Shown: piece by piece, positions 26,925 to 48,735 of the stretch
Layout of the letters: each line of letters begins with the position of its first letter
Position numbering within the stretch: position 1 is the first letter of the stretch
From: Magnolia sinica
Lineage: Eukaryota; Streptophyta; Magnoliopsida; Magnoliales; Magnoliaceae
Direction of reading: 5' to 3'
Assembly (NCBI RefSeq): GCF_029962835.1
Contig: NC_080584.1
Location: 82,550,862 to 82,614,861, forward strand
Length of the DNA: 64,000 nucleotides
Program-made: the position numbers and the translations under genes
Notes under the pieces: generated by a model
Databases searched by the model: none
The model's input: only the letters and a program-made list of their open reading frames with translations
Told to the model about the DNA's origin: nothing

Positions 26925-27264
26925 TGGTGTTAAAATAATAAATTAAAGTAATGAAATTAAAAAAATGCACCTATAAATAATTTATTTTTTTTAAAAAGGA
27001 AAATTGTCATCGTGCGTTTTACACCAAAAAAATCTGTCTCCAATTGGAATGTTATTCCCAGACTTCTCTTCCAAACAAAGTTTACACCAAAACCCAACCT
27101 CCTCTTCCAAATGCATCCAGTCCGTCCATATAACAAATTCGTGGCTGAAAAAAGAATCGATTTAAACTTTCTATTCACAGTTATAATAAAACAATAAAAC
27201 AAAAATTATGAAATTAAATAATTCACTTGTAAATAAAAAAAATAAAAGAAGAAAATCGTCATTG

Positions 27265-27980
27265 GACGTTTTACACCAAAAAATCAGTCTCCGATCCAAA
27301 TGATTTTCTCGGCACCGGATCATCTTCGAGACGCTGCTTACTCCAAAACCCAACTTCCTCCTCCAAACACATCTTACCCGAAAACCCAACCTCCTCTTCT
27401 AATCCTTGCTGACATGAAGAAGACTTCGTGTAACGTAAAATACTTCCCAAAGTCCAACCTCCTTCTTCTCCAAACCTTCATCACGCGAAGCCTCCATCGC
27501 ACGTGAAGCAATAACCTCCCTGAATTTCTCCAATTCTGACAGAAACATCTCTAGCTAGCCCACATCATGACCCGATCAATATCCAAATCTCACCATCCAC
27601 GGCTAGGGTTTCCTCCTTTCAGTGGATAATTCTTGTCCACTGTTTCGCCGATCTGATTCTAAATGTCGAAAAGTCGCTGATTCAGATTGTCAAGATGGAT
27701 GACGGACTGGGACGATCAAACAGTTAAGGAGGAAGAAGGAGAGGGAATGTTGCTGTTGCTATCGCTGCATTGTCTGACGTACTGATCAATGACGGAATCA
27801 AAGGATGGATGGCCGAAGGAGAAAGGTTTACCAGTAGGAGAGAAAACGAGAATGCCGAAGTGAGCACCGGTGAGGAAGCAGAGGTTAGAAGCTTTCTTGA
27901 AAAGCCCTTGTCGTCGTTGGAAAAAGAAACTAAAAGCGACGATTTATTTACGATTTTTTCAATTGGAATTTTCCTTTTCC

Positions 27981-27984
<4 letters not shown>
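27265..27984 (-). pseudogene. Type I MADS-box pseudogene, unit 1
   Basis: The minus strand from 27984 aligns with the intact MADS gene at 56372-57238. The start codon is ATA instead of ATG. The reading frame shifts in the middle of the MADS domain, where the intact gene has [10 protein letters not shown]. The in-frame TGA shared by the whole array follows the serine-rich linker. Recognisable parts beyond the shift are '[20 protein letters not shown]' and 'IDQYVRQC'. The C-terminal region is also broken. A DNA-binding product is unlikely. Confidence 0.85.

Positions 27985-28027
<43 letters not shown>
27983..28027 (+). repeat. (CT)n microsatellite in the MADS leader
   Basis: A pure CT run next to the MADS start, so (GA)n on the coding strand. 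Equivalent runs lie at 30234-30280, 32464-32504, 38793-38824 and 46878-46901, with different lengths in each unit. Confidence 0.95.
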
Positions 28028-28031
<4 letters not shown>

Positions 28032-28138
28032 GTTTAAGGGTTTTCTGATTTCGTTGAAAGTAAGTGAAGAGAGGCAGAGGAGTGAAGAAGTTTCCATTTT
28101 ATCTTAGACGGCCCTGCTTAAACGCTTCGGTAATTATG

Positions 28139-28560
28139 TGGAACGCGGATTGCGTACTGTGTAAGTCACTACGCTCTAGTGTACTGAGTATACTCTGTGG
28201 GGTCCTCCGTGGTGTATGTGTCTTATCCATGCCATCCATCCATTTTCCTATATCATTTTATGGGATGATCTTAAATTTGAGCATATCCGAATCTCAAGTG
28301 GACCAAACCACAGGAAACCGTGAGAATTGAATGCCTACTGTTGAAAACTTCTCGGGGGTTAAGAAAGTTTTAGATCAAACTGGCATTTGTATTTTCATCC
28401 ATTTATGTTTGTGTGATCTTATGAACACGTTGGATGTTGGGTGACAAATAAATATTACTGTGGGGCCTAGCTAGGAAAACGGATGGACGGCGTGGATAAG
28501 ACACAATCAGTAGGCTATAGTGTACCGACTGAAGAACCGAAATGTATTGCGATCACGCGT
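28139..28560. mobile_element. MITE upstream of the MADS copy (unit 1); repeated in units 2, 3, 4 and 7
   Basis: It begins 'gaacgcggattgcgtac', has 'tgtggggtcctccgtgg', 'aagtggaccaaaccacagg' and 'gatggacggcgtggataag', and ends near 'gcgatcacgcg'. Matching copies start near 30392, 32621, 38940 and 47014. All sit at the same place, so the insertion predates the amplification. Confidence 0.8.
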
Positions 28561-29080
28561 ATGCACACGAGCCAGCTATCCTCGCTGTTCGTCAGGTGGC
28601 ACTCACCGTCTACTGAAAATGAAATGGCGGGGACCCTTGCAACCCCATTCTACGCAGGGCGTAAAACACTCAAGCTCTGTGGGGCTCACCTTAGTGTATG
28701 TATTTTATCCCACCGTCCATCCATTTTGCCAGCTCATTGTAAGTCATGCATATCCAAAGCTCAAGTGGACCACCAATTGGAGTTTATGTTTATGATTATT
28801 TCACCAATAAACAAGTATCCACCAATCAGAGTTTCTGATTAATTATTTCACTAATCTGATTTTTAGATTAGAATTTAATGACAATAATGTTTACAATTTA
28901 GATTGTTTACATTAAGTTAATATATGCAAATTATATTATGTCTAAGTTCTTGTGCATTAAGCATCATATGCCGTCAGAGTATCAAATAACTCTCCTCATG
29001 TTTCCCATACCATATCAGCATAGCCCTGGTTCAGCCCCATCATGAGAGGGTTATAATGCGAATATTTATTATTTTATTGA

Positions 29081-30229
29081 TATTCACATTAATAATAAAA
29101 CAATAAATCAAAGTAATGAAATTAAAAAATGCAAGGGGGGTGGGGAAATTTTTATTAGATATTCACATTAATAATAAAATAATAAATCAAAGTAATGAAA
29201 TTAAAAAATGCACCTTTAAATAATTTTACAAAAAAAAAAAAAAGAAAAGAAAATTATCGTTATGCGTTTTTCACCAAAAAAATCTATCCCCAATTCGAAT
29301 GCTATTCCCAGACTTCTCTTCCAAACAAAGCTTACACAAAAACCCAACCTCCTCTTCCAAATGCATCCAGTCCATCCATATAACAAATTTGTGGCTAAAA
29401 AGATAAACAATTTGAACTTTCTATTCACAGTTATAATAAAACAATAAAACAAAAATTAGGAAATTAAATAATTCACTTGTAAATAAAAAAAATAAAAGAA
29501 GAAAATCGTCATTGGATGTTTTATACAAAAAAATCTTCGTCTCCGATCCAAATGATTTTCTTCGCACCAGATCATCTTCAAGACGCTGCTTACCCCAAAA
29601 CCCAACTTCCTCCTCCAAACACATCTTACCCGAAAACCCAACCTCCTCTTCTAATCCTTGTTGACATGTAGAAGACTTCATGTAACGTAAAATACTTCCC
29701 AAAGTCCAACCTCCTTCTTCTCCAAACCTTCATCACGTGAAGCCTCCATCGCACATGATGCAAAAACCTCCCTGAATTTCTCCAATTCCAACAGATACAT
29801 CTCTAGCTGGCCCACATCATGACCCTCAATATCCAAATCCCACCATCCACGACTAGGGTTTCCTCCTTTCAGTGGATGATTCTTCTCCACTGTTTCGTCG
29901 ATCTGATTCTGGATGTCGAAAAGTCGCTAATTCAGATTGTCAAGATGGTTGACAGATTGGGACGATCAAATGGTTAAGGAGGAAGAAGGAGAGGGAATGT
30001 TACTGTTGTTACCGCTGTATTGTCCGACGTACTGATCAATGACGGAATCAAAGGACAGATGGCCGAAGGAGAAGGGTTTACCTGCAGGAGAGAACGAAAA
30101 TGCCGATGTGAGCGCCGGTGAGGGAGTAGAGGACAGAAGCTTTCTTGAAAAGCCTCTGTCGTCGTTTAGAGAAAGAAACTAAAAGTGACGATTTATTTAT
30201 GATTTTTTCAATTGGAATTTTCCTTTTCC

Positions 30230-30284
<55 letters not shown>

Positions 30285-31315
30285 GTTTAAGGGTTTTCTG
30301 ATTTCGTTAAAAGTAAGTGGAGAGAGGCAGAGGAGTGAAGAAGTTTCCATTTTATCTTAGACGACCCTGCTTAAATGCTTCGGTAATTATGTGGAACGCG
30401 GATTGTGTACTGTGAAGTCACTACGCTCTAGTGTACCAAGTATACTCTGTGGGGTCCTCCGTAGTGTATGTGTCTTATCCATGTCGTCCATCCATTCTCC
30501 TAGATCATTTTATGGGATGATCTTAAATTTGAGCATATCCGAATCTTAAGTAGACCAAACCACTGGAAACCTTGAGAATTGAATGCTTACTGTTGAAAAC
30601 TTCTCGGGGGTTAAGAAATTTTTAGATCAAACTAGCATTTGTATTTTCATTCGTTTATGTTTGTGTGATCTTATGAACACGTTTGATGTTGGGTGACAAG
30701 TAAATATTACTATGGAGCCTAGCTAGGAAAACGGATGGACGGCGTGGATAAGACACAATCAGTAAGCTATAGTGTACCGAAAGAACCGAAATGTACTGCG
30801 ATCACGCGTATGCACACGAGCCAGCTATCCTCGTTGTTCGTCAGGTGGCACTCACCATCTACTGAAAATGAAATGGCGGGGACCCTTGCAACCCCATTCT
30901 ACGCAGGGCGTAAAACACTCAAGCTCTGTGGGGCTCACCTTAGTGTATGTATTTTATCCCACCGTCCATCCATTTTGCTTGCTCATTGTAAGTCATGCAT
31001 ATCCAAAGCTCAAGTGGTCCGCCAATTGGAGTTTACGTTTATGATTATTTCACCAATAAACAAGTATCCACTAATCAGAGTTTCTGATTAATTATTTCAC
31101 TAATCTAATTTTTAGATTAGAATTTAATGACAACAATTTTTACAATTTAGATGGTTTACATTAAGTTAATATATGCAAATTATATTATCTCTAAGCTCTT
31201 GCGCATCAAGCATCATATGCCGTCAGAGTATCAAATAACTATCCTCATGTTTCCCATACAATATCAGCATAGCCCTGGTTCAGCCTCATCATCAGAGGGT
31301 TATAATGCGAATATT
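29081..31315. repeat. MADS array unit 2
   Basis: Same order as unit 1. It begins with two copies of a roughly 75-bp AT-rich block ('tattcacattaataataaaa') separated by a G-rich stretch near 29137. The conserved block and tail end near 31310. Confidence 0.88.
29520..30233 (-). pseudogene. Type I MADS-box pseudogene, unit 2
   Basis: ATG at 30233 opens 'MGKRKIPIEKI' and '[19 protein letters not shown]', so the first half of the MADS domain is well kept. One base is missing just after 'AHIGIFV', which ends the frame at 30078. The array-wide TGA would follow further on. Downstream blocks 'WWDLDIEGHDVGQLEMYLLE' and 'LEEEVGF' are still recognisable in other frames. It could at most make a short protein of about 50 aa with half a MADS domain. 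Confidence 0.87.
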
Positions 31316-32461
31316 TATTGTTTTATTAGATATTCACATTAATAATAAAACAATAAATCAAAGTAATGAAATTAAAAAATGCAGGGGAGAGGGGCATTTT
31401 TATTAGATATTCACATTAATAATAAAACAATAAATCAAAGTAATAAAATTAAAAAGTACACCTTTAAATAATTTATTTTTTAGAAAAAGGAAAATTATCA
31501 TCGTGGGTTTTACACCAAAAAAATCTATCTCCAATTCGAATGTTATTCCTAGACTTCTCTTCCAAACAAAGCTTACGCCAAAACCCAACCTCCTCTTCCA
31601 AATGCATCCAGTCCGTCCAAATAACAAATTCGTGGCTGAAAAGAGAATCAATTTAAACTTTCTATTCACAGTTATAATAAAATAATAAAACAAAAATTAG
31701 GAAATTAAATAATTCACTTGTAAGTAAAAAATAAAAGAAGAAAATCGTCGTTGGACGTTTTACACCAAAAAATTTTCGTCTCCGACCCGAATGGTTTTCT
31801 CGGCACCGGATCATCTTCGAGACACTGCTTACCCCAAAACCAAACTTCCTCCTTTAAACACATCTTACCTGAAAACCCAACCTCCTCTTCTAATCCTTGC
31901 TGACATGAAGAAGACTTCATGTAACGTGAAATACTTTCCAAAGTCCAACCTCATTCTTCTCTAAACCTTCATCACGCGAAGCCTCCATCGCACATGATGC
32001 AACAACCTTTTCCAATTTCGACAGATACATCTCTAGCTGGCCCACATCATGACCCTCAATATCCAAATCCCACCATCCACGGATAGGGCTTCCTCCTTTT
32101 AGTGGATGATTCTTCTCCACTGTTTCGTCGATCTGATTCTGGATGTCGAAAAGTCGCTGATTCAGATTGTCAAGATGGATCGCGAACTGGGACCATCAAA
32201 CGGTTGAGGAGGAAGAAGGAGAGGGAATGTCATTATTGCTACTACTACATTGTCCGACGTACTGATCAATGACGGAATCAAAGGATGGATGGCCAAAGGA
32301 GAAAGGTTTACCGGCAGGAGAGAAAACGAGAATGCCGATGTGAGCGTCGGTGAGGGAGCAGAGGTCAGAAACTTTCTTGAAAAGTCCCTATTGTCGTTTG
32401 GAGAAAGAAACTAAAAGCGACGATTTATTTACGATTTTTTCAATTGAAATTTTCCTTTTCC

Positions 32462-32506
<45 letters not shown>

Positions 32507-33190
32507 GTCTGTTTAAGGGTTTTCTGATTTCGTTGAAAGTAAGTGAAGAGAAGCAAACGAGTGAAGAAGTTTCTATTTTATCTTAGACGGTCATGCTTAA
32601 ACGCTTCGGTAATTATGTGGAATGCGGATTGTGTACTGTGTAAGTCACTACGCTCTAGTGTACTGAGTATACTCTGTGGGGTCCTCCGTGGTGTATGTGT
32701 CATATTCATGCCGTCCATCCATTTTCCTAGATCATTTTATGGGATGATCTTAAATTTGAGCATATCCGAATCTCAAGTGGACTAAACCACAAGAAACCGT
32801 GGGAATTGAATTCTTACCGTTAAAAACTTCTCGGGGGTTTAGAAAGTTTTAGATCAAACCGGCATTTGTATTTTCATCCATTTATGTTTGTGTGATCTTA
32901 TGAACACGTTGGATGTTGGGTGACAAATAAATATTACTGTGGGGCCTAGCTAGGAAAACGGATGGACGGCATGGATAAGACACAATCAGTAAGCTATAGT
33001 GTACCGAAAGAACTGAAATGTAGTGCGATCACGCGTACGCACACGGGCCAGCTATCCTCGTTGTTCGTCAGGTGGCACTCACCGTCTACTGAAAATGAAA
33101 TGGCGGGGACCCTTGCAACCCCATTCTACGCAGGGCGTAAAATACTCAAGCACTATGGGCTCACCTTAGTGTATGTATTTTATCCCACCG
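31316..33190. repeat. MADS array unit 3 (continues at 37291-37650)
   Basis: Same order as units 1 and 2. The tail is split by the long LTR insertion at 33191-37290 and resumes at 37291 with 'caccgtccatccattttgcc'. Without the insertion the unit would be about 2.2 kb. Confidence 0.88.
31755..32465 (-). pseudogene. Type I MADS-box pseudogene, unit 3
   Basis: ATG at 32465 opens '[20 protein letters not shown]'. Within the basic stretch the expected [10 protein letters not shown] reads SKRQ, stop, GLFKK, so the frame ends after about 25 codons. Beyond it the domain is otherwise well preserved ('[20 protein letters not shown]', '[11 protein letters not shown]'), followed by the shared array TGA. 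The C-terminal blocks are 'WWDLDIEGHDVGQLEMYLSK' and 'LEEEVGFSGKMCLKEEV'. Confidence 0.87.
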
Positions 33191-34259
33191 TGTAAGCCCC
33201 GTATCCTAGACCGTACCGTTCTATAGACTTCTGCGGTCTTCCCGGTCGAATTCTGACAACCTTCGACCCTTAACCGGTATTTGCGCGCGACCCTGATTCT
33301 CATGCCGTCAACCCGTGTCGACTCAACCCAGGACTTGTACCTTAGCGACCGCGTCGTCGTCGCAGTTCCAATGCTGCGACTTGCGCGTCGAGGCGATACC
33401 CTGGTCGGGAGATGTGGGCCAGCGTTCAATGCGAGGAAAACGTCGCGAGTTGTAAAATCTGAGAGAATCTCTACGACTTGTCACATCAATCAATCCCATC
33501 AATCCCATCATGTCAAGTACACATCACATTTCACCCTTTCCCAAGCAAGCCTCAAAAATCAAAAAGTTCTTACAAAACCCATACTTTTCTTACAACTTTT
33601 GCCACAAAAGTCAAAAAGGGCTCTTACACCCATCATTCACCACATCAACACATCTATCACCCATCCCTCTCTCTTTACAAGTCTCTCTCTCTCATTTTCA
33701 AAGTCATTCCTAAGCAACTAAGAGCCTCACGTCCAAGCCCTCCCATGGTGAGAAAAATGCATGTGTGAGGCCCACCTTTCCATCCCTAGATCTCCTATCC
33801 TAACCATCCATTTCTCATCTTCCTCCATCAAAGAGAAGCACAAGGAGCTAAGGAAGCCAAGAGAGCAAGAAGATCAAGCGATGGGTGCTTTGATAGGGTA
33901 GTTTTAATGTTTTTTTTAGTTGGGCCAAGTGAGGCCAACCAATTAATGGTTTGGATCTCACTTTGGACCCTAAGATGTGGCCGATGGCCCACTTGGATCA
34001 TCATGATCATTCCATGATAGGGTCATTCTCCATGGACCCCATCATGATGTTTATTTTCCTTGCATACTTAGGGTCATCTAGACCGTCTATTTTAGCGGAG
34101 AAGGGATCTCCACCGTTGGATTTCGATTTAATGGGCCCACATGTAATGGGACCCACTTGATTTATGTTGTAGATCATTGAAGGGAGGGCCCATAGTGCCG
34201 GGGTCCCTCCATCACGCGTGTCCCACTCTCTATCCCTCTCTCTCCCTCTCTATTTCACT

Positions 34260-35250
34260 TTCTTTTATGAGACCATGATGTGGTTGTGTGGCCCACTTGA
34301 ATGGACCCCACCATAAGGCATGTATTCTACCCAACCATCTACAAGTGGGACCTACTTTGGGTGTGTTGTATCCACACCATACTCCATGAGGTGGCCCACC
34401 TAAGCAGGGCCCACTTCAAATGCATATGTGAGGCTAAACCGTCCAGCGTCCCTGGACGCTGGACAAAAAGGGAAAACACAAATATCAGCTTGTTTCCAAG
34501 CTTATGGGTGGCCCACTCATGTAGGCCCCACCTTGATGCAGGTGTTCAATCCATGCCGTCTATCCTATATACCAACTCATTTTAGGCGTTGAGCCAAAAA
34601 ATGAGGTTGATCGGATCATCTGGTGGGTCATACCTTAGCAAACAGTGATCTCCACCGTTTAAAGTCCCCCAGATTTTTCCTTACACTGAAAAATGCCCAA
34701 TATTGGACTTGATGGATGTGTTATGGGCTGTAGAAATCAGTGGGCATGGTGGATTCTTCCTATGTGGGCCCCATGTACAAAAAACCTTGGAAAAATCAAG
34801 ATTTCAAAAAAAAACAAAAACAAAATACATGAGCAGCAGCTGCTGTCGTTGTCAGTAGCGCAGCATCGCCTGCTGCTGCGTCGACAGGCGGGCGGTCAGC
34901 AACCCACGGCTCTAGCCGTGGGCCCCACCTTGATGTTTATTTGTCATCCAACCCATTCATGAGGTGGGCCACTCTTAGCAGTGGGCCCCCTCCAAATCTC
35001 CGCTCCGTCCACAGCTCAGGTGGCCCACACTGCAGGAAATAGTGGGATTAAACGTCTGCCCCTTGAAATCCTTTTTGGGTCCACAGAAGTTTTGGATCAG
35101 GGTGAAATTTGTTTTTACTCTTTATCTAGGTCTACGTGACCTTATCAACGGGTTGGATGGCGTATCAACATTATGGTGGGCCCCACGTGGAGCCCACAGT
35201 GATATATGTGTTTTATTGCCACCGTCTAGGTGGATGGTAGAGCCCACTGT
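34260..35250. repeat. MITE-like segments within the long LTR
   Basis: Words of the common MITE occur here: 'aggccccaccttgatgcagg', 'tccatgccgtctatcc', 'ggtggcccacactgcagg', 'aagttttggatcagggtgaa' and 'tggtgggccccac'. Several incomplete pieces in both halves' wording suggest old MITE insertions captured in the LTR lineage. Confidence 0.6.
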
Positions 35251-35285
35251 GAATATGTGTTATATCCCCACCGTCCAGGGACGGT

Positions 35286-35412
35286 GGGTGTGTATGTGTG
35301 CGTGTGCGTGTGTGTGTGGGTGTGTGTGTGTGTATATAATATTATATTATATATATAATATTGTATATGATATATATAAAATATATATTATATTATGTAA
35401 AATATGTGATGG
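35286..35412 (+). repeat. (TG)n then (TA)n low-complexity tract
   Basis: A GT-rich run (35286-35332) passes into a TA-rich run (35333-35405) inside the long LTR. Confidence 0.92.
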
Positions 35413-35539
35413 TTGGCCTTCATGTGGACCCCCACCGTGAGGCAGGTGCTGTATCCAATCTGTCCATCCTTTTTTTTAAAAAAAAAAAGCTTATTTTATG
35501 GCATGGGCATAAAGAATGAGCCAGATCCATAGTCCAAGT

Positions 35540-35870
35540 GGACCCCACCTTGGCATGTTGTGAGGCCCATTTGATGTATTAGGGGCCCATGGTTTAAGGC
35601 CCATTAAGATGTATTGGGGCCTATGGGTTGAGGCCCATTTGATGTACATTTGGGGCCCTATTGGTGTGGCCCATTTGTTACTCATAAGACCCATGAGATC
35701 AGGCCCATTTAATGTATTCAAGACCCAAGGGGTTATGGCCCATTGCAATGTACAAAGGGCCCATTGATGTGGCCCACTTGATGAATATAAGGCCCATATG
35801 ATATGGTCCATTTGATGTATTTAAGGCCCAATGAGATGTACCTAAGGTCCATTGCATTGTGTGATCCCAA
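35540..35870 (+). repeat. Minisatellite-like tandem repeat
   Basis: About seven imperfect repeats of a 40-50 base phrase: 'ggcccatttgatgtat' and 'aaggcccat' with variants. It lies within the long LTR. Confidence 0.8.
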
Positions 35871-37290
35871 CATAATTTATGTAATGATGTTTATGACAGT
35901 CGTGCCTTGGGAGCAATCTTGGTTTGACGTCCACATTGCAAGTATAGTGTTGGTTAAATGTCCGCATTATGCCTTTCCCTAGGGCCCATTGTTAGGCTCG
36001 TATGTGTAATGTGTAGGCTGTCTAGGCCCATCTTTGTTATGAACATCATCCATCCCATATAACATGTTTAGTTCCATGATTCATGATCATATGCATCATA
36101 TGTATGCTTGATATGAGAAATGACTGATCATAGCATATGCCTTCGGGCAGATTGTTTAGGGGCTCCCGGATAGGGGGTGTTGCCCTACATGAGTGCACGA
36201 TACGCGCAGGATTGCTGTATGACTGGATAGTTTGATTCATGCATTCGCATTGTGTGATATAGTTACTATACGCCCTAGCGACATCAGGGCCGTAGCCTCC
36301 ACTGACGTATCGTGGTTGGCAGGATTGGATACCGGAAATATTGTTCTACATGGGGTGCTATAGATATCCCTGGGTGAAAGTTCCTAAACCCTTATAGTAC
36401 CAAGAGGTTGCTCCAACGTCTAGACCGAGTGGGTGCATGAGCGCCGAGTGCCGATTACCAGACGGTTGTACTTTCCACTGTATCGTGGTCGGTTGGAAGG
36501 GGGTGCGGCCTTACCCGCCCGAGAGTAGGGGGCAATGCTGGGCTGAGTCTGACCAGCTCGAGGAATGGATCCGTTATTGACGAGCTGAGCCCGATATTGG
36601 TAGGCGAATAGTGAGGTCTTTTTCACTCACCTTATTGCGCGGGATGGGGCGGCAATCTGGCTTGGAGTGTACTAGACCCCGGTAATATTCCAGATTTTGA
36701 GCTGTATCGATATGTGGACTTAGATGAGGATTTATATGCTTGAGTTGCATTTCGCATTACATGGTCTTGGTATGGCGGACATTATTCATGTTTTGCACCG
36801 CATGGCCTTGGTACGGCTAATGGTATTCTTGGCTTTTCATCAGCATGTTCCGCATTACTCTGATACTGCATAACTACATTACCACCTTGAGCACACACTT
36901 TCACCACCCTCTAAGCTTTCTATAAGCTTATGCACAACCGTTGTGTGCAGGTGACGTTGGATCGCAACAGCGCTGAGGCTTGGGCACGTGGCAGATCATT
37001 TTGGAGTATTTGGTCATCATTATTGTATTTTCCTTTATGCTCATTGTACTTGTAAAGTTTTTTATCATAGTGGAAATGTGATGGAGTTTTTGGTTGTTGT
37101 TGTGGGTTATGCCTTTGGTTATGCTTATTACGAATCAAACTGATGTTAAAAATCCTCCTCGTAGCATCCCAAGATCGGAACCTGGCGAATGGGCGCTGGG
37201 AGCCGAGAATGGGGTTCTACGGAGGCTGTCGGCATCGGATTCAGCGATTGAAAATTTTGTGAGCCCGGTTTCCGAGTTTGGAGCGTGACA

Positions 37291-37650
37291 CACCGTCCAT
37301 CCATTTTGCCAGCTCATTATAAGTCATGCATATCCAAAGCTCAAGTGGACCACCAATTGGAGTTTATATTTATGATTATTTCACCAATAAACAAGTATCC
37401 ACCAATCAGAGTTTCTGATTAATTATTTCACTAATCTAATTTTTAGATTAGAATTTCATGACAGCAATTTTTACAATTTAGATGGTTTACATTAAGTTAA
37501 TATATGCAAATTATATTATCTCTAAATTCTTGCGCATCAAGCATCATATGCTATCAGAGTATCAAATAACTATCCTCATGTTTCCCATACCATATCAGCA
37601 TAGCCCTGGTTCAGCCTCATCATCAGAGGGTTATAATGCGAATATTTATT
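37291..37650. repeat. Tail of MADS array unit 3, after the LTR
   Basis: It continues the unit tail: 'agctcaagtggaccacc', 'cagagtatcaaataact', 'catgtttcccatacc', then 'ggttataatgcgaatattta'. Confidence 0.88.
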
Positions 37651-38084
37651 ATTTTATTAGATATTCACATTAATAATAAAATAATAAATTAAAGTAATGA
37701 AATTAAAAAATGCAGGGGGGGCATTTTTATTAGATATTCACATTAATAATAAAACAATAAATCAAAGTAATGAAATTAAAAAATGCACCTTTAAATAATT
37801 TATTTTTTAAAAAAAGGAAAATTGTGATCGCGTGTTTTATATCAAAAAAATCTGTCTCCAATTCGAATGTTATTCCCAGACTTCTCTTCCAAACAAAGCT
37901 TACGCCAAAACCCAACCTCCTCTTCCAAATGCATCTAATCCATCCATATAACAAATTCGTAGCTGAAAAGAGAATCAATTTGAACTTTCTATTCACAATT
38001 ATAATAAAACAATAAAATAAAAATTAGGAAATTAAATAATTCACTTGTAAATAAGAAAATAAAAGAAGAAAATCGTCGTTGGAC

Positions 38085-38789
38085 GTTTTATACCAAAAAA
38101 TCTTCGTCTCTGATCCGAATGATTTTCTCGGCACCGGATCATCTTCGAGATGCTGCTTACCTCAAAACCCAACTTCCTCCTCCAAACACATCTTACCCGA
38201 AAACCCAACCTCTTCTTCTAATCCTTGCTGACATGAAGAAGACTTCATGTAACGTGAAATACTTCCCAAAGTCCAACCTCATTCTTCTCCAAACCTTCAT
38301 CACGCGAAGCCTCCATCGCACATGACGCAACAACCTTTTCCAATTCCGACAGATACATCTCTAGCTGGCCCACATCATGACCCTCAATATCCAAATCCCA
38401 CCATCCACGGATAGGGTTTCCTCCTTTTAGTGGATGATTCTTCTCCACTGTTTCGTCGATCTGATTCTAGATGTCGAAAAGTCACTGATTCAGATTGTCA
38501 AGATGGATCACGGACTGGGACCATCAAACGGTTGAGGAGGAAGAAGGAGAGGGAATGTCATTATTGCTGCCACTACATTGTCCGATGTACTGATCAATGA
38601 TGGAATCAAAGGACGGATGGCCGAAGGAGAAGGGTTTACCGGCAGGAGTGAAAACGAGAATGCCGATGTGAGTGTCGATGAGGGAGCAGAGGTCAGAAAC
38701 TTTCTTGAAAAGTCCCTGTCGTCGTTTGGAGAAAGAAACTAAAAGCAACGATTTATTTACAATTTTTTCAATTGAAATTTTCTTTTTCC

Positions 38790-38793
<4 letters not shown>
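38085..38793 (-). pseudogene. Truncated type I MADS-box gene, unit 4; MADS domain open
   Basis: ATG at 38793 opens 89 codons to the shared TGA at 38524: 'MGKKKISIEKI', then '[19 protein letters not shown]', '[20 protein letters not shown]', 'DSIIDQYIGQC' and a serine-rich linker. The whole MADS domain is open here, unlike units 1-3 and 7. The C-terminal part ('WWDLDIEGHDVGQLEMYLSE' at about 38380) lies past the stop and is not translated with it. Type I MADS genes usually lack introns, as here. If expressed it would be a domain-only protein of 89 aa, able in principle to bind DNA or dimerise, but this is inference. The start has a CT run just upstream. Confidence 0.8.
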
Positions 38794-38826
<33 letters not shown>

Positions 38827-39161
38827 GCGTCTATTTAAGGTTTTTCTGATTTTGTTGAAAGTAAGTGAAGAGAAGCAGATGAGTGAAGAAGTTTCTATTT
38901 TATCTTAAACGGCCCTGCTTAAACACTTCGGTAATTATGTGGAACGCGGATTGCGTACTATGTAAGTCACTACGCTCTAGTGTACTGAGTATACTCTGTG
39001 GGGTCCTCCGTGGTGTATGTGTCATATTCATGACATCCATCCATTTTCCTAGATCATTTTATGGGATGATCTTAAATTTGAACATATCCGAATCTCAAGT
39101 GGACCAAACCATAAGAAACCGTGGGAATTGAATGCTTACCATTGAAAACTTCTCGGGGGTT

Positions 39162-41502
39162 TGTTCACTCCCCAAGTATAGGGTTGTGATGTAGTAATAA
39201 ACTCGGTAAGACCGAGGTCGAATCCACAGGGACTGATACTTGTACGTTATCTGAAACCAAGTAGAACTAGAACTAGATTTAAGATGTGATCTAAACCAAG
39301 TAGAATTTAAGAAATAATTGTGGAACAATTATCTAAAACTTTAAGGAATTCAGAGGAAGAAACTAGGGATTCAGAGGATCCACTTGTAGAGATCAGGGAG
39401 AAATTATGCCTGCTTCAGAAATCATGGAATTTAACTAGACTTCCTTTGATATAGTTTTCAAGAGGTGAAAGGTGTATGAATTAGAATGGATTCAATCACC
39501 AAGCCATGCCCATGAGACAAAGTAAACAACAGAATTAAACTAATTACCAACCAACCAACAATGTATGAGGATCAGGAAGGGTACTGTCATCCTACCATGC
39601 CCATGGGACGATGATGAACAACAGGGGTTCCTGACTTCATAAACATAAAAAGGGAAAAGAAATACTCAAAGCCATTGCAAATCCATTGTAATTTCAGTCA
39701 CAACAGACCATAAAAGACTAAGAAAAAATATTCCTTTAATAATCAACTATATCAAATTCAGTTTAGAAATTTAAATTAAAGGCAGAAAGTAGGTTCTCCC
39801 ATCTCGCTACAGGTTTCACCTCTTAGCCCTAACTAAGAGGTTTAGCCACACATGATATGGGCTAAGTCTAAAAAAATAATAATAGAAATATAAAGGAAAA
39901 GAAGAAAAAAAAAAAAAAAACCAGAACCGAGCATCCCTTGCAATCGTCCAAGCCCTGCTTTTTTTCTCCCCACTTCCCGTTCTCCTTCTCCCCTTTATTC
40001 ATGAGAAGGTCGGCTGGGGGACTGTGCATACGCAGCAACCTGTTCCGCAGCTGGAACGCATAATAACACAAGCGGACTCATGTTTGGCCGAGTGTGAGCG
40101 ACTAGCCGCCAAGATTTCTCCAAACAAACTTCTTAGACAGGTTTATGGCTTCCCTGTGAACATTTTGAACGGTACTGATCATTAGTCTGGCCACGATTGA
40201 GATCGTACAGTGGGCCACGGGAGTCGGCAGCGTCCGTGTTCTCCTTGGATACTCTGTCTGCGCAAGACTTGCGCTGAGCTGCTGATGGGGGCCATGATCG
40301 GTTTTATCAACAAAATCCACGCCGTCCATTGGAATCCTCGTGGAAATTCAGTCAGGAACGAGTGGTTTTGGCAGGTTCTTGTGTGGCCCACTGGATATTC
40401 TATTCCGCCGTCCATCATGAGTTTCGGCGGTCGAAATCCGCTACACGTTGCTTCCTAGAAAAATTCCACCTAGGTCTGAGTGAGAGGAGCGATTTGAGTC
40501 TCATAAACGGTTCGGATCTGACCGTTGATGCACGATGTTGGCCCAAAGAGTTCCGCCGCAAGTCTCTGTTCAACTTCCGCAGCAGAGACCGAAACGGAAG
40601 GCTCTGTCGAGAGTCGGTGGGTTCCACGTACTTGGTATCTTCAAAATCCATCACGTCCATTAGTTTCTCCTCAGAAAACCGTTGTGATATGGTCGGTTTT
40701 GGATTGGTTTGAGTGTGGCCCATTGCATTTTTAAATCGGCCGTTCATCTTGTGTTTGAACGGTAATCTGCCTGTCCGTACGTTCATGGGTCGAAAAGGAC
40801 ACGTAGGTGACGATTACGTCTACCCAAGAGATTCAATAGACGGTCTGGATCATCCATTTGGATGATGACTGGGCCGTATTACTGAAAAACGGACGAACAG
40901 CGTCCGTGCACTGTTATTTTGTAAGAAGGAGACGTCCCTGCCATGCCATGCACTCTTAGTGCAAAAAGTGTACTATGTACACTGGATAATGATTATGAGA
41001 AATTCACACCATCCATCTTGTTCCCCATTTCATTTGAGCCGTGGAGGCCGAAGTTAAAGCGTATCTGGACAGCGGGTGGGCCCCAAATCAGGATTTTATG
41101 GACTGATCTGTTAGTTCAGCCACTTTCATAAGGATCCAATGACTGAAATTTGACGTGTACGGTTAGTTTTTGGTCCTCGAGCCATGTATAAAGTTTCGAG
41201 CCAAACAGATGATGGAAACCCAGTGATCTTGCATTCTGGCTGACTTTCAAGCCGCTTGAGCTTCAGTTTCTCAATTTTCGCGGATCCTTGGCGTGTAATT
41301 TCGTCGATTTTGGTCCCTTGGAGTCCGTCCCTTGCCTTGGTGCATTCTGAACGTTAAATCCGTGCTTTTAGCATCCTTTTTCAGTCCATGCTCGTAAATA
41401 CACCTTGCATCACAAACACGATTAAACTGGTGCATTAAATAGTATCATGTCCATAAATTCAGGTAATAATTGGGTCTGATATGCAATATTTGACCCTCAA
41501 CA
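39162..41502 (-). mobile_element. Probable solo LTR, 2.3 kb, probably Ty3/gypsy (Athila/Tat-like)
   Basis: TG...CA ends ('tgttcactccccaag' ... 'gaccctcaaca') are flanked by the 5-bp TSD 'gggtt' at 39157-39161 and 41503-41507. Sister units have the intact site. The stretch 'gtcgaatccacagggac' near 39219, read as 'gtccctgtggattcgac' on the minus strand, is a phrase I associate with the end of some plant gypsy LTRs; hence the strand and family, both inferred. No polyprotein sequence is seen. It is younger than the array. Confidence 0.75.
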
Positions 41503-41660
41503 GGGTTTAGAAAGTTTTAGATCAAACTGGCATTTGTATTTTCATCCATTTATGTTTATGTGATCTTATGAACACGTTGGATGTTGGGTGACAAATAAAT
41601 ATTACTGTGGCCTAGCTAGGAAAACGGATGGATGGCGTGGATAAGACACAATCAGAAGGC

Positions 41661-42352
41661 TATCGCACGTTTTACACCAAAAAATCTATCTCCAATTCGA
41701 ATGCTATTCTCAGACTTCTCTTCCAAACAAAGCTTACGCCAAAACCCGACCTCCTCTTCCAAATGGATCCAATCCGTCCATATAACAAATTCGTGGCTAA
41801 AAAGAGAATCGATTTGAACCTTCTATTCACGGTTATAATAAAAAAATAAAACAAAAATTAGGTAATTAAATAATTCACTTATAAATAAAAAAATAAAAGA
41901 AGAAAATCGTCGTTGGACGTTTTACACCAAAAAAATTTCGTCTATGATCCGAATGATTTTCTCGGTACCGGATCATCTTCGAGACGTTGCTTACATTAAA
42001 ACCCAACTTCCTTCTCCAAACACATCTTACCCAAAAACCCAACCTCCTGTTCTAATCCTTGTTGACATGAAGACTTCATGTAACGTGAAATACTTCCTAA
42101 AGTCCAACCTCCTTCTTCTCCAAACCTTCATCACGTGAAGCCTCCATTGCACGTGACGCAACAACCACGATGATGGTGAAGTGGCATGGGAGATGTCCAG
42201 CAGGGCGATGAAAAGGACCAATCATCCAACGGCTAGGTTTCATCTTAACTGTGTGGAAGTGGAGGCCTATGTTAGTTGGTTTCGCTGATTCAGATTGTCA
42301 AGATGGATGACAGACTGGGACCATCAAACGGTTGAGGAGGAAGAAGGAGAGG
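41661..42352 (-). pseudogene. MADS array unit 5 remnant: 3' part of the MADS copy only
   Basis: It contains the duplicated gene end (41665-41880), then the C-terminal half of the MADS copy as far as about 42160. A short poorly matching stretch (about 42165-42250) follows, then 'gctgattcagattgtcaaga' and the serine-rich linker DNA. It stops in a run of G at 42351-42360 and fuses to the next unit. The MADS domain is absent, so it is a dead fragment. Confidence 0.75.
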
Positions 42353-43315
42353 GGGGGGGGCATTTTTATTAGATATTCACATTAATAATAAAACAATAAA
42401 TCAAAGTAATGAAATTAAAAAATGCACCTTTAAATAATTTATTTTTTAAAAAAAGGTAAATTATAATCGCGCGTTCTACACCAAAAAAATATATCTCCAA
42501 TTCGAATGTTATTCCCAGACTTCTCTTCCAAACAAAGATTATGTAAAAACTCAACCTCCTCTTCCAAATGCATCCAGTCCGTCCAGATAACAAATTCGTG
42601 GCTGAAAAGAGAATCAATTTGAACTTTCTATTCACAGTTATAGTAAAACAATAAAACAAAAATTAGAAAATTAAATAATTCACTTGTTAAAAATAAAAAA
42701 TAAAAGAAGAAAATCGCCATTGGACGTTTTACACCAAAAAATCTTACTCTCCAATCCGAATGATTTTCTTGGCACCGGATCATCTTCGAGACGCTGCTTA
42801 CCCCAAAACCCAACTTCCTCCTCCAAACACATCTTACCTGAAAACCCAACCTCCTCTTCTAATCCTTGCTGACATGAAGAAGACTTCATGTTATGTGAAA
42901 TACTTCCCAAAGTCCAACCTCCTTCTTCTCCAAACCTTCATCACGCGAAGCCTCTATCGCACGTGACGCAACAACCTCCCTGAATTTCTCCAATTCCGAC
43001 AAATACATCTCTAGCTGGCACACATCATGACCCTCAATATCCAAATCCCACCATCGATGGCTAGGGTTTCCTCCTTTTAGTGGATGATTCTTCTCCACTG
43101 TTTCGTTGATCTGATCTTGATGTCGAAAAGTTGCTGATTCAGATTGTTAAGATGGTTAAAGGACTGGGAGGATCAAACGGTTGAGGAGGAAGAAGGAGAT
43201 GGAAAGTTTCTATTGCTGCCGCTGCATTGTCCGACGTACTAATCAATGACGGAATCAAAGGACGGATGGCCGAAGGAGAAGGGTTTACCAGTAGGAGAGA
43301 AAATGAGAATGCCGA
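42353..43315 (-). pseudogene. MADS array unit 6, truncated within the MADS domain
   Basis: It starts in a G run, carries the 3' flank with the duplicated gene end (42361-42715) and the MADS copy from its C-terminus. 'LEEEVGFSGKMCLEEEVGF' and 'WWDLDIEGHDVCQLEMYLSE' can be read on the minus strand. The shared TGA is present near 43170. The homology breaks off at about 43315, in the codons for '[11 protein letters not shown]', so the N-terminal half of the MADS domain is missing. The bases that follow look like a MITE end ('ggcagggggagtggccaatc'). Confidence 0.8.
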
Positions 43316-45727
43316 TTTGGCTAGTGGCAGGGGGAGTGGCCAATCCGTACCCGTTTACCATTGACGCACTTTGCATTGTGCTCGGCAGGACGTTATTCCT
43401 ACTTCCTAAGATTAAAAAGATCTATTCAACACTTGATCCTCTAATAGAGAAGAGGAAAGGCTTTGAATGGTAGATTGCAAGGAGAAGTCGGCATCAAAGC
43501 AGCGATTAGGTTCAACCGGTGATCTCTGTACGTGTTTGTCTTCTAGTTTATACCTATCTTTTGAGACATGTATATTCACAATGGACCCCACTATATGAAT
43601 GATTTGGCTTTTGTGGCAAGTGGGCCATGATGATCTTGTGGTAGGTGTTCAATCTTGTACTTTCTGTAGACTCAGTGATTTAGACAACAAATAGATGAGA
43701 CGCTAAAAAGGCCTTGCATACCAATGGCCACTTGTAAGAATTGAAAACTAGCCTATCCAACACAAAGCCCTAGTGCATTAATCGATTCACGAAGAGAAAA
43801 AGAAATCTCGGGTTTCAGTTGGGACGAGTGGGGCCATAGTTTGATAATCCGACTATTAGTCTATTTCCTATCACCTTGGATGGGCCACTCTCCAAAACTC
43901 TCCCAAAACTGAAATATCCAAATCACATTAATAATAGACTATTCTTTAGTTGACACATTATGGAATCTATGATTTATTTTCCATTAATTAATAGAAATGA
44001 TACTATCTCTAGTTCACAAACATCATGCCCAATCAATATTCCTCAAGATTCCCACCATACAAAGATTAGCGGCAAATCATCCAAGGTCCTTTCGAATGAT
44101 TCATTCTCATTGTTTCCATATAATCAAATTCAGTGGATTAAAAAGAATCAGCTTTGATTGATATTCAATTAATAATAAAATAATAAATTAAGAGAAATTA
44201 AAAATGCACCTTGTAAATATTTTTTAAAAAGAGGAAAATTGTTGCAGCTTTACACCAAAAATTGTCTCGAATTCGAATGATTTTCAATGACTGATCATTT
44301 CAAGGATGGCTTAGCCAAAACCCAACCTCCTCTCCAAAGCGATCGAAAATCCATATAATACTTGTGAGCTGAAAGAGACATGAACGTCAAAACTTTTAAA
44401 AGTCCAAACTTCATCGCAAATTTAATTCACTTGACCAGTCGAGCAGAAATAAGGAAGCGGTGCGTTAGTGGAATTTGTTCACAATGAAATTTTCCACCAC
44501 AGAAAATGGAATTTCATCTCTCCTTCTCTCTCTCTCACACATCTTCCCGATTAAAAGTCTTTCTGATTTCAATTGAAGAGATTCAGTGAGGAGGAAGAGG
44601 ATGAAGAAGTTTCCATTTTACCTTGACGATTGCCTACTCAAACGCTTCGGAATTACGTGGAACGCTCCGATGTGACGTGTAAGTCACACGCTCTAAAGTT
44701 TCTTGAATAGATACATCTTGTGGAATAGACCCAACTAAAACCACGATAACGATTATGTTCCTCTTTCATGTCTCTTCTCCATCTCTTCCTTGATCCTGTT
44801 ATGGGATGATCATTAAAGTTTGAGCGATACCGAATTTCAAGTGGACGGCAAACCACTAAACGGTTGAGAATTATGTGGAGAGCGGATTGTGATCTCAGGT
44901 TAAGCACGCATTAGTGTACTTATGATCAATACTCAAGGCATTCGGATGTATGTGTCATCCATTTATCCATTTATGAGATCATTATGAATGATGCTTGATG
45001 TTGGGTGAGCAAATCAAATCTTAAGTGGGCCTTAGCAAAGAAACTAAGAATGGACGATGTGGTTAAAAATTTTCATAGGATTATAGCGTTCTCTCTCAAA
45101 ACAAATTTGTATTTTCATCCTCTTATCTTTATGCTGATCATGAAGTAGTGGGATGCTGGGGTGAAAATTCATTACTGTGGGCCTACTAATGCTACGGAAA
45201 ATGAATGGCGATGTGGATAAGCCACCACATTATGGTGGGCCCCATAAGTTTTTGAACTTATGGGGCTCACCTTAGTGTATGTATTCTTATCCATCGTGTC
45301 CATCCATTTTGCCACTCATTGTAAGATCTAATTGGCATATCCAAGCTCTAAGTGGACCACCAATTAGAACTATGTATGATTATCTTCACCGTAAACAATT
45401 CCACGTCAATGAAAGTTTAATCAAACTTAATTTGATTTCACCAATTTGATTTTATGATTTTGTGATTTCATCATAGTAATAATATATGCATACATTACAT
45501 TAATTAATATCACAATTTATTATCTTAAGTTGTTCGCATCAAGCAATTATTGTCAAAAGTATTCACATAACTTCTCTTCATGTTCACATACCATTACTCA
45601 AAGATAAGCCCTTTCAACCCCATTCATCAGGGCTATAATGCCGTCAAGTTATCTACTTATTTTATTGTTTCCCAATACCTTGAATAAATATTTAATATTT
45701 GCTCAACATGATCATATATAGTTTCAA
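43316..45727. other. Anomalous block: poorly matching, scrambled copy of an array unit
   Basis: 43316-44160 has no clear counterpart in the sister units. 44160-45727 follows the unit order (3' flank, MADS end words, CT-rich spot at 44515, leader 'gaagaagtttccattttacc', MITE words, tail words such as 'agtggaccaccaatta'). It differs by short gaps, insertions and rearranged words every few bases, far more than units on either side differ. The MADS body is nearly all missing. It may be an old, decayed copy, or a stretch of poor consensus. Confidence 0.55.
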
Positions 45728-47955
45728 TTGGGAAATTTTTATTAGATATTCACATTAATAATAAAATAATAAATCAAAGTAATGAAATTAAAAAATGCAA
45801 GGGAGAGCATTTTTATTAGATATTCACATTAATAATAAAACAATAAATCAAAGTAATGAAATTAAAAAATATACCTTTAAATAATTTAATTTTTTAAAAA
45901 ATGAAAATTGTCATCATGCGTTTTACACCAAAAAAATCTATCTCCAATTCAAATGCTATTCCTAGACTTCTCTTCCAAACAAAGCTTACGCCAAAACCCA
46001 ATCTCCTCTTCCAAATGCATCCAGTCCGTCCATATAACAAATTCGTGGCTGAAAAGAGAATCAATTTGAACTTTCTATTCACAGTTATAATAAAACAATA
46101 AAACAAAAATTAAATAATTAAATAATTCACTTGTAAATAAAAAATAAAAGAAGAAAATCGTCGTTGGACATTTTACACCAAAAATCTTCGTCTTCGATTC
46201 GAATGATTTTCTCGGCATCGAATCATCTTCGAGACGCTGCTTACCCTAAAACCCAACTTCCTCCTCCAAACACATCTTACCCGAAAACCCAACCTCCTCT
46301 TCTAATCCTTACTGACATGAAGAAGACTTCATGTAATGTGAAATACTTTTCAAAGTCCAACCTCCTTCTTCTCCAAACCTTCATCACGCGAAGCCTCCAT
46401 CGCACATGACGCAACAACCTCCCTGAATTTCTCCAATTCCGACAGATACATCTCTAGCTGGCCCACATCATGACCCTCAATATCCAAATCCCACCATCCA
46501 CGGCTAGGGTTTCCTCCTTTCAGTGGATGATTCTTCTCCACTGTTTCGTCGATCTGATTCTGGATGTCGAAAAGTCGCTGATTCAGATTGTCAAGATGGA
46601 TGACGGACTAGGACGATCAAATGGTTGAGGAGGAAGAAGGAGAGGGAATGTTGTTGTTGCTGCCGCTGCATTGTCCGACGTACTGATCAATGACGGAATC
46701 AAAGGACGGATGGCCGAAGGAGAAGGGTTTACCAGCAGGAGAGAAAATGAGAATGCTGATGTGAGCGCCGGTGAGGGAGCAGAGGTCAGAAGCTTTCTTG
46801 AAAAGCCTCTGTCGTTGTTTGGAGAAAGAAACTAAAAGCGACGATTTATTTACGATTTTTTCAATTGGAATTTTCCTTCTCTCTCTCTCTCTCTCTCTCT
46901 CGTCTGTTTAAGGGTTTTCTGATTTCGTTGAAAGTAAGTGAAGAGAGGCAGAGGAGTGAAGAAGTTTCCATTTTATCTTAGGTGGCCCTGCTTAAGCGCT
47001 TCGGTAATTATGTGGAACGCAGATTGTGTACTGTGTAAGTCACTACGCTCTAGTGTACTGAGTATACTCTGTGGGGTCCTCCGTGGTGTATGTGTCTTAT
47101 CCATGCCGTCCATCCATTTTCCTAGATCATTTTATGGGATGATCTTAAATTTGAGCATATCCGAATCTCAAGTGGACCAAACCACAGGAAATCGTGAGAA
47201 TTGAATGCTTACCATTGAAAACTTCTCAGGGATTAAGAAAGTTTTAGATCAAACTGGCATTTGTATTTTCATCCATTTATGTTTGTGTGATCTTATGAAC
47301 ACATTGGATGTTGGATGATAAATAAATATTACTGTGGGGCATAACTAGGAAAACGGATGGACAGCATGGGTAAGACATAATCAGTAGGCTATAGTGTACT
47401 AACTGAAGAACCAAAATGTATTGCGATCATGCGTATGCACACGAGCCAGCTATCCTCGTTGTTCGTTAGGTGGCACTCACCGTCTACTGAAAATGAAATG
47501 GCGGGGACCCTTGCAACCCCATTCTACGCAGGGCGTAAAACACTCAAGCTCTGTGGGGCTCACCTTAGTGTATGTATTTTATCCCACCGTCCATCCATTT
47601 TGCCAGCTCATTGTAAGTCATGCATATCCAAAGCTCAAGTGGACCACCAATTGGAGTTTATGTTTATGATTATTTCACCAATAAACAAGTATCCACCAAT
47701 CAGAGTTTCTGATTAATTATTTCACTAATCTGATTTTTAGATTAGAATTTAATGACAGCAATTTTTACAATTTAGATGGTTTACATTAAGTTAATATATG
47801 CAAATTATATTATCTCTAAGTTCTTGCGCATCAAGCATCATATGCCGTCAGAGTATCAAATAACTCTCCTCATGTTTCCCATACCATATCAGCATAGCCC
47901 TGGTTCAGCCCCATCATCAAAGGATTATAATGCGAATATTTATTATTTTATTCAT
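45728..47955. repeat. MADS array unit 7, complete
   Basis: Full order as in units 1-3: two AT-rich blocks with a G-rich joint (45735-45870), duplicated gene end, MADS copy, short CT run, leader, MITE (about 47014-47420), conserved block and tail. High similarity to unit 1 resumes abruptly at about 45728. Confidence 0.88.
46165..46878 (-). pseudogene. Type I MADS-box pseudogene, unit 7
   Basis: The codons for M-G-K are lost: the GA run joins directly to the sequence for 'RKIPIEKI'. After that the MADS domain is open and well kept: 'SFSKQRQRLFKKASDLCSL' (one conserved arginine is glutamine), '[20 protein letters not shown]' and '[11 protein letters not shown]'. The array-wide TGA follows the linker. 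Past it come 'WWDLDIEGHDVGQLEMYLSE' and 'LEEEVGF' repeats. No start is available in frame before the domain except by use of a non-ATG codon. Confidence 0.85.
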
Positions 47956-48289
47956 TTTTATTGCACGTATATATGGTCCCAACAAGTAGATGGATCATAT
48001 CTTTTATTGGGTTTATTTATGTTTAAATAATGATCTTAACCGCCCATATTAAAGATCATTGATCAAATGGTTAATATTTGTCAGATGGTTATGATATTCA
48101 CATGATAACCCTCTGATTATGGGGTTAGACCAAGTGCATGCACCTACATTCGATAGATATGGTGCACATGCACACTGATTTAATGGGTATTGCCTCTAAA
48201 GTGGGCCCTGCTGTTTAAACACACAAACACAATCCCTTCTTTAGCTTCTCGTGCTTTCTTTGAAACCGTACATATTGTGCACTTATGTA
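47956..48289. repeat. Older unit sequence
   Basis: 'ggtcccaacaagtagatgga', 'cccatattaaagatcattga' and similar words match 55690-55790, and in part 25290-25340. No gene is seen. Confidence 0.6.
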
Positions 48290-48735
48290 TTACAATTCAT
48301 TTAGATGTAGAGGAAAATTTCTTATTCTCCTAGATCCTAACTTCCTCATCCAAACCGTCGTGACACGAAGATGCCTCTATGTCACGTGACATCACATTCC
48401 AAATCCCAACCTCCTTCACCTTCAAACTTTCCTCACGTGAACAAGCCTTCACTGCACATGACAGCACAACCTCCCTCAATTTCTCCAATTTGGACAGAAA
48501 TATCTCCAGCTGGCAAACATCAGTACCCTCAAATCTCAATATCCAAATCTCGCCATCAACAACTAGCTTTTCCTTCTTTTAGTAGACTATTCTTCTTCAC
48601 CTCTTCCTCGAGCAACTGCTAAACATCAGCAAGATACTGATTTAGATCATCGAGATGGACATCAGAATGGGATGATCCAACGGCTGAGGAAGAAGAAGGA
48701 GACTTCAGCTGCTGCATTTTCTCAAGTACCGATCG
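48290..48735 (-). pseudogene. Diverged MADS gene fragment, C-terminal part
   Basis: The minus strand carries 'SSSSAVGSSHSDVHLDDLNQ' (about 48645-48700), then 'TDVCQLEIFLSKLEKLREVV', equivalent to the middle and C-terminal part of the intact gene. Here the codon that is TGA in the array units is still GGA. The MADS domain is missing: homology ends near 48735, and the next bases match the upstream part of the older unit (26160-26220). The frame is also broken in the interior. Confidence 0.8.

Follow-up and report, generated by a model that had tools for sequence, protein, structure and literature searches.

The array of type I MADS copies described here from Magnolia sinica was produced, in all probability (roughly 0.85), when a gene that was already dead hitch-hiked on a local tandem amplification. 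Within the window (the whole stretch of DNA analysed, 64,000 nucleotides), all seven array copies that have codon 90, which follows the MADS box and a serine-rich linker, read TGA there, whereas GGA stands in the intact 57-kb gene and in a diverged fragment at 48.7 kb (Table 1). An earlier note had drawn this contrast, which is confirmed for all seven copies, and the bases it cited for unit 4 and the common orientation of the units hold too, every copy lying on the minus strand. Its statement that units 1-7 hold MADS copies has to be narrowed: seven copies do carry the TGA, but a nearly whole MADS box is present in only five of them, the 43.2-kb copy being without its first ~41 codons and the copy at 41.7-42.4 kb being reduced to the tail and a 72-bp stretch in which the TGA lies.

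Table 1. Features of the MADS array and its neighbours, in window positions
Feature	Position	Strand	Details
Unit 1, 2244 bp	26931..29174	-	Pseudogene 27459-27990; TGA 27716-27718; ATG replaced by ATA; 1-bp deletion near 27.9 kb; stops at codons 109, 132, 143
Unit 2	29175..31422	-	Pseudogene 29711-30233; TGA 29966-29968; 2-bp deletion near 30.1 kb; stop at codon 103
Unit 3, first part (32.2-kb copy)	31423..33190	-	Rest at 37291-37749; pseudogene 31950-32465; TGA 32196-32198; TAG at codon 26, within SKRRQ
Later multicopy insertion in unit 3	33191..37290	.	LTR-element-like: TG...CA ends, 5-bp target duplication CACCG
Unit 4, first part (38.5-kb copy)	37750..39161	-	Rest at 41503-41663; pseudogene 38278-38793; ATG and 89 open codons ahead of TGA 38524-38526; stops at codons 104, 109
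Later multicopy insertion in unit 4	39162..41502	.	TG...CA ends, target duplication GGGTT
Unit 5 remnant	41662..42353	-	Tail 41662-42166 and 72-bp piece; TGA 42324-42326
Unit 6, truncated	42389..43316	-	From codon ~42 onward; TGA 43173-43175; TAG at codon 68
Older diverged unit, ~70%	44115..45761	-	MADS body absent
Unit 7	45836..47958	-	Pseudogene 46362-46884; TGA 46617-46619; GA repeat in place of ATG; TAG at codon 93
Diverged fragment	48336..48702	-	Without MADS box; GGA 48676-48678
Intact MADS gene	56372..57238	-	288 codons; GGA 56972-56974

The TGA most likely arose once, after a segment had been duplicated between C3 and C12 and before the 2.24-kb tandem duplication, since a C3 counterpart lacks the stop, three tail deletions (3, 1 and 10 bp) are common to all seven array copies, and the joins compared between units (1/2, 2/3 and 3/4) are alike. 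The counterpart is a single, unamplified, syntenic unit (L021) on the C3 contig, which has GAA at the stop codon and none of the three deletions; the open sister gene, located at C3:84.265 Mb, has GGA at this codon, as do both genes of the 57-kb type. In a tree with six units, the array forms a clade with 94% bootstrap support, and array plus C3 unit are joined at 84%, in agreement with the earlier view of a single stop that preceded amplification. The change from GGA to TGA is a G-to-T transversion, and its presence in seven of seven copies together with three co-inherited deletions rules out an independent, recurrent origin; coincidence is excluded. An array unit bearing GGA, the case that the earlier note held to be decisive against a shared stop, was found nowhere among the 40 best of 9260 candidates from a whole-genome DNA search.

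The C3/C12 pair is unlikely to stem from a whole-genome duplication: seven noncoding pairs are 90.8-94.4% identical, whereas the shared duplication has a Ks of ~0.75 (PMC10999834). Homology to C3 was found piecewise over window positions 23939-59344 in a comparison that left out C3:85437401-85450499; beyond this, none was detected at E 1e-20 in the sampled stretches 85407500-85417499 and 85456501-85464500. The right-hand end of the window is repetitive and uninformative on synteny.

Could the stop instead have been born in one unit after amplification and then been spread by gene conversion? This is kept in play by the weakly supported branching order within the array (22-45%, one pair excepted) and by conflict among the informative sites (51 such sites across five units, of which 21 support the 32/38-kb pair), but such conflicts are likewise expected from recurrent deamination and, examined for conversion, gave no clear result. 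Moreover, the stop and the three deletions occur in seven of seven units although the six that were compared differ by 6-10%, and even the truncated remnant at 41.7-42.4 kb carries the stop, so that spread by conversion appears very improbable.

The 2.24-kb unit takes in ~1.2 kb of DNA upstream of the gene, which marks a non-processed origin with flanking DNA repeated, and identity between units is 90.3-94.3% over the aligned unit in the six of seven compared. Two units were later interrupted by insertions, the one in unit 3 having, among the matches listed, seven near-full-length copies elsewhere at 84-95% identity, and the one in unit 4 six full-length copies at 97-98%. Disabling lesions are present in all seven array copies. 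Those besides the TGA had been described as differing from unit to unit, and ATA, loss of ATG, the 1-bp and 2-bp deletions and the TAG within SKRRQ were all located; in copies with a frameshift ahead of codon 90, the TGA is now out of the frame of the original start. The 48.7-kb fragment has a TGA at codon 130 in common with its C3 counterpart, and a TAG of its own at codon 109.

The coding part of the array has evolved neutrally since amplification, according to tests covering codons 1-174 of six units. Codon likelihood gives the array an omega of 0.70 before the stop and 0.67 after it, neither different from 1 (2dlnL 1.79 and 1.50), whereas live-gene branches with their connections give 0.30 and 0.33, both different from 1 (15.9 and 17.6); array and live branches differ from each other with nominal significance before the stop (2dlnL 4.78) and not significantly after it (3.02). 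In a context-aware neutral test, 31 of 43 changes before the stop were disruptive (expected fraction 0.688) and 26 of 37 after it (expected 0.654). The first 60 codons, for which the earlier note had proposed a selection check, likewise behave neutrally (21/29 disruptive, 0.698 expected), and purifying selection on them after amplification was found neither by codon likelihood nor by the neutral test.

These results bear on whether the truncation gave a useful protein of 89 residues with the MADS box only, e.g. a dimerising inhibitor, which was selected before amplification and lost afterwards. The stem preceding amplification has no clearly polarised replacement and three silent changes in the box, as opposed to six and four in the tail plus all three deletions, and the 38.5-kb unit retains its ATG and 89 open codons. 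However, the stem contrast is not significant (Fisher p 0.06 with the deletions, 0.19 without them, 0.25 when one ambiguous box change is counted), and the stem codon model, with an omega of 0.19 before the stop and ~20 (the model's upper bound) after it, differs from 1 in neither part and is uninformative. Single-branch values of this kind are noisy, because the broken C3 unit, expected to be free of constraint, itself gives 1.18 before the stop position and 0.17 after it. Given also the neutral first 60 codons and the loss of ATG or frame, or gain of a stop inside the box, in four of the five units with near-complete boxes, we rate a domain-only product a little lower again than conversion. 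Of the two alternatives offered originally, the dead hitch-hiker thus fits, and the once useful domain is unsupported after amplification and reduced to a non-significant hint before it.

Within codons 1-174, every one of the nine later, unit-specific stops arose by a transition (seven CAG-TAG, one CGA-TGA and one TGG-TGA), and CAG-to-TAG recurs, having hit codon 109 in four copies and codon 26 in two. The CHG-over-CHH transition odds ratio is 2.26 in three array pairs vs 1.17 in seven pairs of C3/C12 flanks (p 0.012, uncorrected for the two tests made), and the array's CG excess does not significantly exceed that of the flanks (p 0.22). Judged by the kinds of base change, the unit-specific stops would follow the pattern expected from decay of methylated cytosines. 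That the silent repeats serve as a source of small RNAs acting on the open C3:84.265 Mb gene, an idea compatible with a dead hitch-hiker, is the least probable of the alternatives: all seven units share exact 21-mers with that gene (between 3 and 52 per unit, with runs of up to 43 nt) and none with the 57-kb gene, the CHG-biased decay suggests silencing, and rice pseudogenes are reported to yield such small RNAs (PMC2708354), but closer kinship alone explains the shared 21-mers. The either-or proposal that an 89-residue regulator was once maintained while the tail decayed, or that the array now feeds small RNAs to the single open sister gene, strikes us as improbable.

If a dead gene was indeed carried along, a type I MADS copy on C12 would have gained the nonsense at codon 90 and the three tail deletions, and the 2.24-kb segment with the broken copy would then have duplicated head to tail, presumably by unequal crossing-over, into about seven units. 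These have since decayed neutrally, as repeats that are probably cytosine-methylated, silent and without product; C-to-T transitions in CAG and CGA codons account for most of the new stops, as such methylation and silencing would lead one to expect.

The 57-kb gene, a predicted single-exon gene, has one open frame of 288 codons that spans box and tail. Its SRF-type MADS domain (Pfam PF00319, residues 10-57, 64.6 bits vs a cut-off of 26) is the sole Pfam family at E <= 0.01, no K-box being found, and its PDB matches are MCM1, MEF2, SRF and SEP3; presumably it resembles the AGL62-like M-alpha proteins. Type I MADS genes undergo local duplication and leave many pseudogenes, with fast turnover next to intact copies, a birth-and-death evolution in plants that Nam and colleagues reportedly described in 2004. 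The magnolia array, with an intact copy beside it, is a neatly polarised case of this known process, with the difference that the duplicated copy was already dead, as the unamplified syntenic outgroup indicates. It resembles the duplicated rice pseudogenes of PMC2708354, some of them MADS-box, in being made of non-processed transcription factor pseudogenes, some of which are reported to be small-RNA sources in rice, and differs in comprising about seven units arranged head to tail, all of which share one founding nonsense codon. A literature search limited to a set of open-access papers, judged mostly by title and opening of the abstract, turned up no description of the array.

What, then, does amplification of an already broken gene signify? 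It means that copy number alone is uninformative on function, and that family counts trusting MADS-box matches would include dead units; of the 70 PF00319 matches in the genome, six lie within the window and five of these are array units. Furthermore, recurrent CAG-to-TAG change can imitate shared nonsense, and a shared stop therefore shows descent only when the type of mutation and the linked lesions are weighed with it.

The TGA that truncates the array copies at codon 90, behind the MADS box and the serine-rich linker, is present in all seven copies that hold this codon, whereas the intact 57-kb gene and the diverged 48.7-kb fragment both read GGA there, just as the earlier note had claimed. 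The further claim that this stop arose once, before the amplification, is most likely right, given the seven TGA copies, a GAA in the unamplified C3 unit, three co-shared deletions and like unit joins. When one unit was searched against the DNA of the whole genome (best 40 of 9260 first-look candidates scored; genome of 1.84 Gb, window at C12:82550862-82614861), the 89 matches listed included a nearly whole unit outside the window only on contig C3, where it is in two pieces. Parts of that C3 region are colinear with window 23939-59344 and carry a single unit in place of the array. This C3 unit is broken too: it no longer has its ATG, reads TAG at codons 26 and 109, and carries a deletion and small insertions. 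Its GAA lies one step from GGA, as does TGA, and two steps from TGA.

Three deletions in the tail alignment (3 bp, 1 bp and 10 bp) are common to all seven array copies, and none of them occurs in the C3 unit or in the open C3 gene of the same subclade. In a tree that took six array units and omitted a 72-bp remnant, support was 94% for the array clade, 84% once joined by the C3 unit and 98% with the open C3 gene added; the 57-kb gene and its C3 counterpart fall outside. Unit joins were compared at 1/2, 2/3 and 3/4; all three share identical sequence within an A+T-rich stretch, and therefore the array derives from one initial tandem duplication. Transversions per site, averaged by hand, come to ~0.019 between units (15 array pairs) versus 0.033 between units and the C3 unit (six pairs), which puts the age of the amplification at roughly 60% of that of the C3/C12 split.

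Could the stop nevertheless have recurred? Some later stops are found in more than one lineage, namely the codon 109 TAG (two non-sister units, the C3 unit and the 48.7-kb fragment) and the codon 26 TAG (one array unit and the C3 unit). However, all nine unit-specific nonsense codons within codons 1-174 of the array are transitions (seven CAG to TAG, one CGA to TGA, one TGG to TGA), whereas the founding TGA is a G-to-T transversion, so that its recurrence is even less probable. Transitions confined to one unit run at 0.34 per site at CG, 0.31 at CHG, 0.11 at CHH and 0.03 at A/T. Comparing one odds-ratio metric between three non-overlapping array pairs (from 15) and seven C3/C12 noncoding pairs, the 57-kb gene pair being left out, gave 2.26 versus 1.17 for CHG over CHH (p 0.012) and 2.20 versus 1.63 for CG (p 0.22; two tests, uncorrected). 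This pattern fits cytosine methylation of the array repeats, the methylation itself being inferred.

Selection since the amplification was assessed in two ways. A branch-class codon model was fitted to ten sequences in which stops, gaps and shifted codons had been masked; the set did not include the 72-bp remnant, nor the 48.7-kb fragment or its C3 counterpart. The array omega was 0.70 ahead of the stop and 0.67 behind it, in both cases indistinguishable from 1 (2dlnL 1.79 and 1.50), versus 0.30 and 0.33 on open-gene branches and their connections, both below 1 (2dlnL 15.9 and 17.6). The two classes differ before the stop (2dlnL 4.78) but not significantly after it (3.02). Omegas for the C3 unit (1.18 before, 0.17 after) and for the stem preceding amplification (0.19 before, about 20 after) are scattered, such single short branches being noisy. 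The 57-kb gene and its C3 counterpart differ over 287 codons by dN 0.056 and dS 0.161 (NG86) or 0.059 and 0.123 (YN00). The second approach was a neutral expectation with separate CG, CHG, CHH and A/T rates, drawn from upstream DNA, the tail past codon 174 and 3' DNA of the array units; counted were changes in one of six units or common to the 32-/38-kb pair, other shared patterns being dropped. The array matches its prediction before the stop (43 changes versus 39.0 expected; 31/43 disruptive, expected fraction 0.688), after it (37 versus 36.1; 26/37, 0.654) and over the first 60 codons (29 versus 25.9; 21/29, 0.698). Hence this context-aware test of six units shows no protection of a protein, short or long, since amplification.

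Whether a domain-only product was useful earlier depends on the stem. Clearly polarised changes there comprise no replacement and three silent ones in the box, four and two in codons 91-174, and two and two beyond codon 174, the last polarised by two C3 sequences alone in the ancestral frame; three changes with the array in the 57-kb state, an ambiguous box change (codon 12) and the stop were set aside. All three stem deletions lie in the tail (chance probability 0.25). For box against tail, Fisher's test gives p 0.19 on substitutions, 0.06 once the deletions are counted and 0.25 when the ambiguous change is added as well. On such thin data, a short-lived domain-only product before amplification is possible but unproven.

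Features of the array locus and its C3 relatives (plain coordinates count within the window)
Feature	Position	Strand	Extent	Codon at stop position
Segment colinear with C3	23939-59344
Array, 2.24-kb units head-to-tail	26931-47958	minus		TGA
Segment upstream of MADS copies	~28193-28470
Older unit without MADS body	44115-45761
48.7-kb fragment, no MADS box	48336-48702			GGA
Intact 57-kb MADS gene	56372-57238	minus	288 codons	GGA
Segment with inverted-repeat ends	57362-57899		~540 bp
C3 counterpart of 48.7-kb fragment	L021 7347-7829
C3 pieces with single unit	C3:85.419-85.455 Mb			GAA
C3 counterpart of 57-kb gene	C3:85.453 Mb (L022 2163-3059)		304-codon open frame	GGA
Open C3 gene, array subclade	C3:84.265 Mb		253-codon open frame	GGA

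The MADS box is nearly complete in five array copies; one further copy begins at about codon 42 and another is reduced to the 72-bp remnant plus tail. Units 3 and 4 are each split by a multicopy insertion that ends in TG...CA and has a 5-bp target duplication; both insertions are younger than the unit that they split. Between units 6 and 7 lies the older unit, ~70% identical, so that local duplication occurred here at more than one time. The segment upstream of the MADS copies (about 602-938 of the query), with equivalents in the other units, matches more than 20 other genome places at 74-78%, and these matches often adjoin an inverted partner; it is an old MITE-like element carried along within the array.

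A nonsense codon of their own (codon 130, GGA to TGA, likewise a G-to-T transversion) is common to the 48.7-kb fragment and the corresponding copy on C3, and thus this copy was probably already dead when the C3/C12 segment duplicated. Directly upstream of the 57-kb gene, the C3 counterpart has ~60 bp where the window has the segment with inverted-repeat ends, which therefore looks like a small transposon insertion close to the promoter. In the 57-kb gene product, the SRF-type MADS domain is the sole Pfam match at E 0.01. The product has 288 residues versus 299 in its C3 counterpart. The short K/E-rich repeats in the tails of these two intact genes, with their MKASEGLE-like motifs, vary in number and composition, so that this protein repeat is apparently changing.

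In rice, pseudogenes have been described as small-RNA sources (PMC2708354). Exact 21-mers of the open C3 gene recur in all seven units, at 3 to 52 per unit and with a longest run of 43 nt. The 57-kb gene has no 21-mer in common with any unit, and its C3 counterpart has at most two per unit. A regulatory reading, in which the array would act via small RNAs on the open C3 gene, is only a lead.

Type I MADS genes are known to undergo fast birth-and-death, as Nam et al. reportedly described in 2004. Among the cases of type I expansion reported in a magnoliid survey is Liriodendron chinense, with most of its type I genes expressed at a nearly undetectable level; the words 'pseudogene', 'tandem' and 'sinica' are all absent from the main text of the survey (PMC12526163). 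The process behind the array is thus one already known for type I MADS genes, of which the present case is a well-polarised example.
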